Positions 3,079-19,799 of a stretch of 64,000 nt of DNA are shown in pieces. Source of the DNA: an uncultured Pelagibacteraceae bacterium (GTDB lineage Bacteria > Pseudomonadota > Alphaproteobacteria > Pelagibacterales > Pelagibacteraceae); contig CACNFA010000001.1 in the NCBI GenBank assembly GCA_902619675.1, positions 1 through 64,000 on the forward strand, given 5' to 3'. The position numbers and the translations under genes were made by a program. Each line of letters opens with the position of its first letter. Positions within the stretch are counted from its first letter, which is position 1. Under the pieces are notes generated by a model. That model ran no database searches and was not told the DNA's origin. It saw nothing but the letters and a program-made list of their open reading frames with translations.

Positions 3079-3939
3079 TTAAATACCCTCGCCAACTTTG
3101 TATCTAACAAAATCAATTATCTTAATTTCATCTTCTTTCGAATTTTCTTTCAAAACATCAGAAACTTTCTTTTTAGGATCCATAATCCAAATTTGATTTA
3201 AAAGTGAATTATCATTTAAAAATTTAGATATCTTACCTTTTGATATTTTGTCCGCTATTTCTGCAGGCTTTCCTGAATTTATAATTTCAGCTTTAATAAT
3301 TTCTATTTCCTTATCAACTATTTTTTTCTCAATCCCATCTTTATCTAAAGACAGTGGATTTAGTGCTGCTATATGCATTGCTAGTTTAGAACCTAATTCT
3401 GCATTATTCTCTGCTCCCTCTAATTTAACGATTGAGATAATTTTTCCAATATTTTTTTCTATTGATGAATGAACATAATAAAAATTACTTCCTTTTTTAT
3501 TATCAAAAAAATTAGCTCTTCTGATTGTAATTTTTTCACCAATTTTTGCTATTAAGTTTACTAGATTATCTTTTACACATTGTCCGTTAGCCATATTGGT
3601 GGATAAAATTTTATCAAGATCTGCCTCTTTTAAAAAATTAATTTCTGATATTTCTTTACAAAAATCTATAAAATCTTTATTTTTAGCAACAAAATCGGTT
3701 TCGCTGTTAATTTCAATTATTGAAATCTTTCCTTTAAGTTCCTTAACTAGAGCTAGCCCCTCTGACGCAGTTCTACTCATTTTTTTTGTAGCTTTTGCTA
3801 TGCCTTTTTTTCTTAAAAATTCTACTGATTTTTCAATATCACCTTTAGTTTCATCTAAAGCAATCTTACAGTCTTTAAAACCAACACCTGTCATTTCTCT
3901 TAGTTTTTTTATGTTATCTAAAAGATCTTTGTTTGACAT
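3079..3939 (-). CDS. tsf: translation elongation factor Ts
   Basis: LREMTGVGFKDCKIALDETKGDIEKSVEFLRKKG; SETDFVAKN. Confidence 0.97.
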   Translation of the reverse strand: MSNKDLLDNIKKLREMTGVGFKDCKIALDETKGDIEKSVEFLRKKGIAKATKKMSRTASEGLALVKELKGKISIIEINSETDFVAKNKDFIDFCKEISEINFLKEADLDKILSTNMANGQCVKDNLVNLIAKIGEKITIRRANFFDNKKGSNFYYVHSSIEKNIGKIISIVKLEGAENNAELGSKLAMHIAALNPLSLDKDGIEKKIVDKEIEIIKAEIINSGKPAEIADKISKGKISKFLNDNSLLNQIWIMDPKKKVSDVLKENSKEDEIKIIDFVRYKVGEGI

Positions 3940-3956: not shown

Positions 3957-4700
3957 TTATTTTTTTTTATTTTCTGGCTCTTTTTTCTCAGACGCTTTCT
4001 CTTCTGGAATTTTAATAAACTTTTCAGCGTCTTTAATTGTATTCTTCAATAATTCACAATAAAGATTTATTGATCTTCTTGCATCATCGTTTCCGGGAAT
4101 AGGGAAATCAATGTCTGTTGGATCAGAATTGGTATCAAGTACAGCGATTATTGGAATACTTAGTTTTTTAGCCTCGGCAACTGCAAGTGCCTCAATATTT
4201 GTATCTATTATGAAGATAAGATCAGGGGTTTTTTTCATTTCTGAAATTCCACCTAAAGATCTTTGCAATTTTTCTCTTTCTTTGCCAAATTTTAAAATTT
4301 CTTTTTTTGTAAAGCCTAAGTTTTCTTTGGATAGTTGATTATCTAATTTTTTTAATCTTTTAATTGAATTTTGAATTGTATTCCAATTAGTTAACATTCC
4401 CCCGAGCCATCTATAATTTACATAATATTGTCCTGTATCTTTTGCTAATTCTTTAATTTGTTCAGAAGCTTGTTTTTTTGTAGATACAACAAGTAACTTG
4501 CCTCCACCTGATATAACTTTATGAACTTGAACTAATGCGTTTTTGATAAATTCTACAGTTTGTGTTAAATCGATAATATGGATTGAGTTTTTTTCACCAA
4601 AAATAAATTTCTTCATTTTTGGATTCCACCTCAAAGTTTTATGTCCAAGGTGAACACCTGCTTCTAATAATTGTTTAATATCTACTTTTGGTACGTTCAT
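3957..4700 (-). CDS. rpsB: 30S ribosomal protein S2
   Basis: [54 protein letters not shown]. Confidence 0.98.
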
Positions 4701-4780
4701 ATTTTTTTCCCGGTTAATCCACCACAGTTATTCCATTATTATGGACCGGTAGGGTAACGCCCTTGCAACTGTGTGCGAAA
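4701..4780 (-). promoter_or_regulatory. putative structured mRNA leader of rpsB (three-way junction with possible pseudoknot)
   Basis: Inverted repeats read from sequence (+ coords): 4723-4729/4767-4773 (7 bp), 4732-4736/4741-4745 (5 bp), 4751-4754/4760-4763 (4 bp), plus 4710-4714 complementary to 4745-4749. Confidence 0.6.
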
Positions 4781-4821
4781 TTAGTAACTGATATATACAA
4801 ACAAATTAAAAAATCAACTAT

Positions 4822-7800
4822 CTATACCAATATTTTTGCCACATATTTCTTGGCTTTTAGCGCTTTAAGATGTGTTAAGTCAAATTTTCTATTATTTTGA
4901 AGCAAATATTTAGCTTTTTTATTTTTATTTTTTATAATCAAACTAATTTGGGTCTCCCCTGCAACGGCTAAAATTTTTTTTACCTCATTAATCTCAAAAT
5001 CATCTTTTAATTCAATTTCAACCCTTTCATATGGCTTATTTATCATTTCATCCAAGCTTAAAATTTTTCTAACATTTACTCTTCTTTTAGTGGTATCAGT
5101 CAAAAATTTATCTTTTTGTAATGTTATTATAAATGACTCGGACTCTTTTAATTTTTCTCGATTAGCAGTAAGGATTTCAGAAAATAGAAATAACTCAAAT
5201 TCTTCGCGTTTGTCACTTAATTTCACTATTCCATAGGGAGTGCCCTTTGCACTTTTTTTTTCTACTATTGACATGATAGTACCAGCGACTAACCCTTCGG
5301 TCTCATTATTTTCATAAAATTGATTGTAAGATATTATGTTAAGCTCTTTAAATATTTCTTCATACTCATTTAAAGGATGATCTGAGACGTAGAAACCTAA
5401 GGATTTAAATTCCTCATTCAATAATTGCTTTTGAGTCCAAGGTATTGCATCTAAATATTCAAACTCTTTATTTAAATTCTCATCATTTTCGAATAGGTTC
5501 GATTGATTATTCGTTTTATCATCATTAATATTTTTAATTTTTTGTATTATTTTTGGTATTGATATAAAAATTTTATTTCTGTCTTTGTCAAATTCATCAA
5601 ACACACCAGCCTTAGTTAGGCCTTCTAATTGTAATTTATTGACATCTTTTGAGTTTACTCTTTGAATAAAATCTAAAAATGATTTGAACTCACCTTTTTT
5701 TTCTCTTTCGTTGATAATATTTGAAATTGCTTCAAATCCAACGTTTTTTATCGCTCCTAAACCGTAAAAGATTTTTCCATCTAAGGCTTTAAATTCTGCA
5801 AAACATTTGTTTATCGAAGGCCTTACTATTTCAACCTTTAATCTTTTTAATTCTTCGACGAATTCTCTTAATTTTGAAGTATTTGTAAGTTCTGTCGACA
5901 TGGTAGCAGCAATGAAATCTTCTTTGTGATAGGTTTTTAAAAATGCAGTCTGATAAGCTATTAATGCGTAAGCTGCTGCGTGACTTTTGTTAAAGCCATA
6001 TTGGGCAAATGGCTCAATTTTTGTAAAAACAAAATTTGCCACTTCTTTTGAAATTCCATTTTTAATTGCACCATTAATAAATCTCTCTTTTTGTTTATCT
6101 AATTCTGCTTTTTTCTTTTTCCCCATTGCTCTTCTTAAAATATCAGCTTCTCCAGCGGTAAAACCAGCAAGAGTTTGAGCTATTTGCATAACTTGCTCTT
6201 GATAAATAATTATTCCATATGTAGGTTCTAATATTTCTTTTAAGATTGGATGAATATAGTCAGGTTCTTTGAGCCCATTTTTACAATCATTGTAAATTGG
6301 AATATTGCTCATTGGCCCAGGACGGTATAATGCTACCAGAGCTATGATGTCATCAAATTTATTTGGTTTCATTTGTTTTATAGCTTCTCTCATCCCAGCG
6401 CTTTCTAATTGAAATAAACCTGTTGTCTCACCGGTTGCTAAAAGAGAGAAAACTTTTTCGTCATTTTGATTTATTTTACTGATATCAAGATCAATTTTTT
6501 TAGATTTTAATCTTTTTAAAGTTTTATCGATGACTGTAAGTGTTTTCAGACCTAATAAATCAAATTTAACGAGACCAGCATTTTCAGATGAATACATATC
6601 AAATTGGGTTGAGGGCAAGATTAAATTTGAACTATGATCAACATAAAGGGGAAATTGTTCTGCCAATTTCTCACCAGCAATTACCACTCCTGCAGCATGT
6701 GTGGCCATGTTTCTATTAAGCCCCTCAAGCTTTAAAGAAAGTTCAATTAATTTTTGAACTTTTGGATTATTTTTTACCTCATTTTTAAATCTTGGTTCTC
6801 TATCAATCGACTCTTGAAGCGTTAATGGTCGTGAAGGGTCAAACGGTACCATTTTACAAATTCTATCAACATGTCCATATGAAAGGCCGAGCACTCTTCC
6901 AACATCTCTAAGTGCCATTCTAGCTTTCAGTTTTCCAAAAGTTATGATGTGTGCAACACCATCTTTATATTTTTTTTTTAGATATTCAAAAACTTGATCC
7001 CTTTTTTCCTCACAAAAGTCGATATCAAAATCTGGCATCGAAATTCTATCTGGATTTAAAAATCTTTCGAAAATTAAATCATACTCAATTGGATCCAAGT
7101 CTGTAATATCTAATGAATAAGCAACTAGTGATCCTGCGCCAGAACCTCGGCCAGGCCCGACAGGAATAGAATTGTTCTTAGCCCATTTTATGTAGTCAGA
7201 GACTATCAAAAAATAACTTGCATAATCCATGGAATTGATAATTCTTATTTCGTGCTCAAGTCTGTCAAAGTAAATTTTTTTTATTTGGTCCTCAGTTCTT
7301 TTTTTACTTTTCTTCAAAATAAAATTTTGAATTCTATTAACTAAACCCTCGTTTGCAAGTCTTGTTAGTTCTTGTTCGGGAGAATTCTTATGATTGTTTG
7401 CTATAGAAGGTAATATCGGTTTTGACCTTTTAGGTTTAAAATTAAATCTTAAATGAAAATTATAGTTATTTTCTAGAGCTTCTGGAATATCAGAATATAA
7501 TTTAAGTAATTCGTCATTTTTTTTTAAAAAATGTTGATCACTGAATTTTAATCTATTTTTATCCGCTACAAAGTTTTTTTGTCCGATACATGTCAAAGCA
7601 TCGTGGGCTTCGTACATATCTTTTTCAACATAAAAAACTTCCTGGGTGGCAATTAAAGGAATATCGAGAATTTTTGAACTATTTAATATTTGAGTTTCAA
7701 AACTTTTCTCATTATTCTCGTTATGTCGTTGAATTTCAATATAAATTCGTGAGTTAAAATATTTCTTTAATAGAGTTAAAGTATCGTTTAGTTCTTTTAT

Positions 7801-11457: not shown

Positions 11458-11711
11458 TACTGTAAAAATTCTCTTAAATTTAGCAAATCAATTTTAACAA
11501 GATAATATATCACTATAAAAATTATAGAAGTAATTATAGTGGTAATTAAAAATTTTTTTGCTATTTTTGGATTTTTTGGAGCTCCAGGATCTGCTCCTTC
11601 TATTTTTTCTTTAAAAACTTCTTTATTTGATTGAATTCCCACTGGTAAAACTGAAAAAAAAATTATCCACCAGATTAAGACATAAACAATAATAGAACCT
11701 GTTATCCCCAT
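11457..11711 (-). CDS. DUF1467 family membrane protein
   Basis: Short two-TM protein, VLIWWIIFFSVLPVGIQSN motif, between proS and rnj. Confidence 0.8.
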   Translation of the reverse strand: MGITGSIIVYVLIWWIIFFSVLPVGIQSNKEVFKEKIEGADPGAPKNPKIAKKFLITTIITSIIFIVIYYLVKIDLLNLREFLQ

Positions 11712-19487: not shown

Positions 19488-19799
19488 TTAACCCTTCATG
19501 CCGTGGATATCCTCAACTCTGATTGAACCTCTATTTCTGTAATAAACTACAATTATAGCAAGACCAATTGCTGCCTCAGCAGCTGCAACAGTTAAGATAA
19601 GCATAGTAAAAATTTGACCAACAATATCATTAGAAAAAATAGAAAACGATATCAAATTAATATTTACAGCTAGCAAAATAAGCTCAATAGACATCAAAAT
19701 AACTATGACGTTTTTTCTATTTAAAAAGATTCCAATAACTCCTAAAAAAAAGATTATTGCACCTAGTGATAAATAATGGCCTAAACCTATTTCAATCAT
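19488..19799 (-). CDS. nuoK: NADH-quinone oxidoreductase subunit K
   Basis: [34 protein letters not shown]. Confidence 0.96.

Follow-up and report, generated by a model that had tools for sequence, protein, structure and literature searches.

A folded leader RNA of the rpsB motif precedes rpsB in Pelagibacteraceae, with its pseudoknot close to the start codon

The gap between dnaE and rpsB in an uncultured Pelagibacteraceae bacterium encodes an mRNA leader whose fold, judging from the comparison of related sequences, is real, and which is the already known rpsB motif, seen here in the lineage of its discovery. The gap (4701-4821; 121 nt from the dnaE stop to the rpsB start) lies in a 64,000-nt stretch of DNA, referred to below as the window. 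Meyer et al. (2009; PMC2704228) described the rpsB motif in Candidatus Pelagibacter ubique, in the gap between dnaE and rpsB, as consisting of P1, P2 and P3, a three-way junction and a pseudoknot between J2-3 and the 3' extension; given that their motif occupies the same gap, the present finding is that known motif. In the reading that we favor and consider likely, the leader of the rpsB-tsf transcript, of RF01815 type, would form a pseudoknot stabilized by ribosomal protein S2 that lowers the synthesis of S2 and EF-Ts. A preliminary description of the window had proposed that the RNA before rpsB is an autoregulatory leader built on a three-way junction, with a possible pseudoknot; this reading is supported by covariation, conservation and an Rfam match, with S2 binding carried over by analogy. 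It also mentioned, correctly, that ribosomal protein leader candidates had been proposed for Pelagibacter, and its remark that the gap is the only sizeable non-coding stretch in the first ~28 kb holds because the apparent gaps at 11458-11710 and 19488-19791 contain small genes.

On the minus strand, from 4777 to 4698, the leader reads CGCACACAGTTGCAAGGGCGTTACCCTACCGGTCCATAATAATGGAATAACTGTGGTGGATTAACCGGGAAAAAAATATG, the last codon being the rpsB start, and both the ORF list and the orthologous loci place it directly upstream of rpsB (Table 1). The stems and the pseudoknot had been assigned the correct sequences and positions in the preliminary description, and RNAfold returns the same fold minus the pseudoknot, at -19.5 kcal/mol; several details nevertheless change. 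The 7-bp closing stem is present, but P1 extends for three more positions around a bulged A (4774), the middle pair of this extension being a G.U or a mismatch. The junction strand, given as ACCGG, is actually CCGGU. Base 4745 could indeed take part in either pairing, with A4732 in P3 or A4714 in the pseudoknot as alternative partners, but it is the last base (U) of the junction strand and not the first. Finally, the feature indeed lies in the gap but begins at 4777, and positions 4778-4821 look like a promoter instead. Compared with shuffled versions of the single sequence, the fold energy gives z of -1.0 for the full leader and -1.8 without the tail. The sequence thus beats its shuffles only weakly, so fold energy proves nothing; single-sequence folding was dropped as proof of structure because it is not significant, and the comparative evidence carries the case.

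Table 1. Positions in the window of the leader, its structural elements and the neighboring genes.
Feature	Position	Strand	Evidence or remark
rpsB motif leader RNA (RF01815-type)	4698..4777	-	P1 5' strand through start codon; cmscan and model R1
rpsB ATG	4700-4698	-	
P1 5' strand CACAGTT	4767..4773	-	covariation, alignment A2 pairs 7-69, 9-67, 10-66
P1 3' strand AACTGTG	4723..4729	-	pair counts and covariation
Outer P1 extension CGC, 5' of bulged A4774	4775..4777	-	RF01815 alignment, RNAfold
GTG (GUG), 3' partner of outer P1 extension	4720..4722	-	RF01815 alignment, RNAfold, covariation analysis
P2 hairpin AGGG(CGTTA)CCCT	4751..4763	-	4763-4760 with 4754-4751; A2 pair 19-30 covaries
P3 hairpin (T)CCAT-AATA-ATGG(A)	4732..4745	-	4745-4741 with 4736-4732; covariation suggestive only
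Pseudoknot junction strand CCGGU (J2/3)	4745..4749	-	SAR11 invariance, gammaproteobacterial compensation
Pseudoknot 3' strand ACCGG	4710..4714	-	-14 to -10 from ATG
Presumed 30S landing site CGGGAAAAAAAT	4701..4712	-	weak Shine-Dalgarno character; overlaps pseudoknot strand
Likely promoter TTGATT...TGTATATAT	4791..4817	-	TATAT conservation
rpsB, ribosomal protein S2	3957..4700	-	ORF; orthologues in 80 loci; regulated gene
tsf, elongation factor Ts	3079..3939	-	ORF; named from sequence and place after rpsB; presumed second gene of operon

The leader is found directly before rpsB in all 80 orthologous loci from public genomes. A covariance model, R1, built from 38 sequences taken mostly from these loci, scores 88.1 bits (E 5.6e-18) in the window's own genome and matches in 156 of 197 Pelagibacteraceae genomes, 74 of the 77 of good quality and all 14 genera. 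It also matches most of one sister family in the order, and with the leaders of other alpha- and gammaproteobacteria considered below, conservation extends well beyond close strains. A single genome (G060) has two R1 matches, one of them of the window's own type, and is probably a mixed assembly, given its listed contamination of 6%.

Covariation was assessed on 100 Pelagibacteraceae leaders in a structure-aware alignment (A2), which was used because in a MAFFT alignment (A1) P2 and P3 are offset by one base from clade to clade; null alignments were generated by moving inferred substitutions over a FastTree tree. Compensatory changes above this tree-aware null are found in P1 (pairs 7-69, 9-67 and 10-66, with E of 0.019, 5e-4 and 2e-4, respectively) and in P2 (pair 19-30, E 7e-4), in a home-made test that borrows its principle from R-scape without being R-scape itself, on an alignment that, being fitted to the structure, favors it. 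For P3, which nearly all relatives have as a short stem, covariation is suggestive only (E about 0.1). The outer two C-G pairs of the P1 extension are invariant in A2, its middle pair has no support in the covariation test of the 100 leaders, and the bulged A is invariant in A1. Plain pair counts in A1 agree, with 90.9% of cells paired, compared with at most 49.5% when the partners are slid. Four divergent leaders of one genus, g9 (L002, L006, L007 and L030), have an altered yet compensated P1, CAAAGAA/TTCTTTG in L002 and CAGAGAA/TTCTCTG in the other three.

The five pairs of the pseudoknot, CCGGU/ACCGG, are invariant in 98 of 98 distinct SAR11 rows and in 30 leaders of other alphaproteobacteria. 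Since invariant strands leave no room for covariation in the alphaproteobacteria examined, the pseudoknot was compared between classes instead, with the strands located by sequence pattern and the equivalence between alpha- and gammaproteobacteria resting on position in the motif. The 31 gammaproteobacterial leaders, that of E. coli included, have GGGGU/ACCCC (15), UGGGU/ACCCG (10), CGGGU/ACCCG (3), UGGGU/ACCCA (2) or CGGGU/ACCCU (1), and all five pairs are formed in 60 of the 61 leaders of the two classes combined. The first pair is thus found as G-C, U-G, C-G and U-A, and the second is flipped, C-G in alpha- versus G-C in gammaproteobacteria, so that the pseudoknot covaries both between the classes and within gammaproteobacteria. 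This pair-for-pair swap of the gammaproteobacterial equivalent indicates that the pseudoknot is real; as far as sequence comparison goes, the pairing has good support.

In the search of Rfam suggested in the preliminary description, RF01815 ("rpsB") matches at the leader with 33 bits (E 5e-5), short of its gathering score of 40. This score is a curation threshold and not a trait of the RNA, and we therefore file the leader as the rpsB motif by the definition of Meyer et al. (2009) and not as a member by the Rfam threshold. None of the 197 Pelagibacteraceae genomes reaches the cut-off, so that annotation relying on it overlooks SAR11; in a sample of 289 genomes of the class, 75 pass it. The leader shares with RF01815 the gap between dnaE and rpsB, the lineage, the three-way junction closed by P1, the short P2 and P3, the pseudoknot between J2/3 and the 3' extension and the frame CAC-A-CAC...CCGGU...GUGGNGG...AACCGG. 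It differs in its length (81 nt, versus 132 positions in the Rfam consensus), in scoring below the gathering score, in the lack of a Shine-Dalgarno (SD) sequence and in the pseudoknot strand lying 9 nt from the ATG.

The E. coli leader, retrieved with an approximate rpsB start as the query (match of 99% or better), belongs to another Rfam family, t44 (RF00127), which it matches at 83.5 bits. This family has no match at positions 4600-4900 of the window at E up to 10, and none in the window's own genome at E 0.001. The E. coli leader nevertheless precedes the same gene, has the frame CACACAC...GUGGAGG..UAAC and carries the GGGGU/ACCCC pseudoknot in the corresponding position, although its P1 is extended with internal loops and its SD lies beyond the pseudoknot strand. 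RF01815 and RF00127 describe one and the same leader of rpsB, the former in alphaproteobacteria and the latter in gammaproteobacteria; Rfam lists no common clan for them.

The spacing of the pseudoknot is particular to SAR11. In SAR11 leaders, 4-10 nt (median 8) separate the end of its 3' strand from the ATG, and an SD-like 4-mer is almost always absent; in other alphaproteobacteria the median distance is 17 nt and 25 of 25 parsed strong matches have an SD-like 4-mer, and in gammaproteobacteria it is 18 nt, with such a 4-mer in 28 of 29. Because the 3' end of the RF01815 model contains the SD, top matches are biased towards it, and for this reason weaker alphaproteobacterial matches were included as well; of the 12 that were parsed, 10 have the 4-mer. 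The spacing parser skipped five alphaproteobacterial loci, one gammaproteobacterial locus and 8 of the 20 weaker alphaproteobacterial loci, and it misplaced the strand in five SAR11 leaders (values of 41-49), two alphaproteobacterial leaders and one gammaproteobacterial leader, whose values are artefacts. The four divergent g9 leaders have a weak SD-like AAAGGA between the pseudoknot and the ATG and are possibly an intermediate state. Read by eye, leaders L201 and L202, from a small-genome alphaproteobacterial family outside the order, are equally compact and keep a strong SD, AAGGAGG.

The anti-SD of the window's genome is intact, ending ...GGATTACCTCCTTTC, and its duplex with ACCGGGAAAAAAAT of the window leader is predicted at -4.3 kcal/mol; the median duplex is -3.5 kcal/mol in SAR11 versus -5.8 in other alphaproteobacteria, for related sequences in sets that were cut differently. 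The pseudoknot strand reads ACCGGAG in a sister family and in Fonsibacter, so that the only SD-like GGAG there overlaps the pseudoknot (the ACCGGAG loci are L186, L187, L188, L191, L193 and L194 in the sister family, and L074-L076 and L106). An SD-like 4-mer precedes the first ATG in only 12 of 49 genes of the window, and rpsB is thus not alone in going without. Masking of the ribosome-binding region by the pseudoknot, as the preliminary description had it, is accordingly plausible and specific to the SAR11 lineage. With slightly more doubt than confidence, we suggest that Pelagibacterales have a compacted rpsB operator, in which the SD has been lost and the pseudoknot placed on the landing site, where it could block the ribosome-binding site directly or stand in for the SD. 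This placement is what is modestly new here: the SAR11 arrangement is not stated by Meyer et al. (2009; PMC2704228), the wider literature having been covered non-exhaustively.

In E. coli, S2 translationally represses its own rpsB-tsf mRNA, helped by S1 (reviewed in PMC10931766), in agreement with what the preliminary description had said of S2; from this we infer that S2 would bind and repress in SAR11 as well, and from the spacing that the pseudoknot would occlude the 30S subunit. A promoter in the gap would probably start transcription shortly before 4777. The RNA would fold into P1 with its bulged A, the short hairpins P2 and P3 and the five-pair pseudoknot from J2/3 to positions -14 to -10; free S2 in excess of ribosome demand would bind, perhaps with S1, and stabilize the pseudoknotted form. 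The five-pair helix, lying inside the 30S footprint, would keep the 30S off the start region by a direct block, and synthesis of S2 and EF-Ts would then drop. In E. coli the ribosome-binding site is reported to lie outside the operator (PMC10931766), and the ancestral mechanism may therefore have been something other than occlusion.

In 27 of 27 close relatives, the TATAT part of the promoter-like box lies 19-22 nt upstream of the leader, which points to a transcript start just before P1; in other SAR11 clades the box resembles TTG-(about 15 nt)-TATAAT. A strict sigma-70 scan gave no promoter match in the gap, and it is conservation from which the promoter is deduced. The leader region contains no terminator-like site, for which reason transcription attenuation was rejected and translational control is favored. 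Upstream of the gap lies dnaE, and downstream rpsB is followed by tsf and by genes that we named by inference from sequence, those for ribosome recycling factor, uppS, cdsA and dxr.

The same pseudoknot could also mainly promote translation, keeping the start region accessible to the 30S and offsetting the missing SD, with S2 feedback weak or lost; S2 and S1 are adjacent on the 30S, and the setting would be that of slow-growing, streamlined cells. That the pseudoknot is unchanged in SAR11 leaders devoid of an SD, and that so few genes of the window have an SD-like 4-mer, fits this possibility, but we consider it unlikely, given that the homologous E. coli leader is an S2 operator (PMC10931766) and that many SAR11 genes without an SD have no such structure. 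We give even less credence to a leader that answers another ligand or serves mainly mRNA stability (e.g., through EF-Ts, S1 or a 5' stem that protects from RNases). The promoter-like box ~20 nt before P1 would put P1 close to the transcript's 5' end, where protecting stems are located, and a few copies of the motif precede tsf rather than rpsB; almost all, however, precede rpsB (Meyer et al., 2009; PMC2704228), and in E. coli it is S2 for which repression has been demonstrated (PMC10931766). Chance complementarity in an AT-rich gap, with no structured RNA, has practically nothing left to recommend it beyond a single-sequence fold energy inside the shuffle range, being refuted by the covariation, by the long motif conserved across the order and beyond and by the Rfam match.

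The preferred reading thus remains that of an S2-responsive leader of the rpsB-tsf transcript. A genuine regulatory RNA was found here starting from raw sequence, and the RF01815 cut-off hides the rpsB motif across Pelagibacteraceae, the very family of its discovery. Because the SD is missing in SAR11 and the pseudoknot covers the landing site, this arrangement offers a compact system for direct tests of how S2 autoregulation works.
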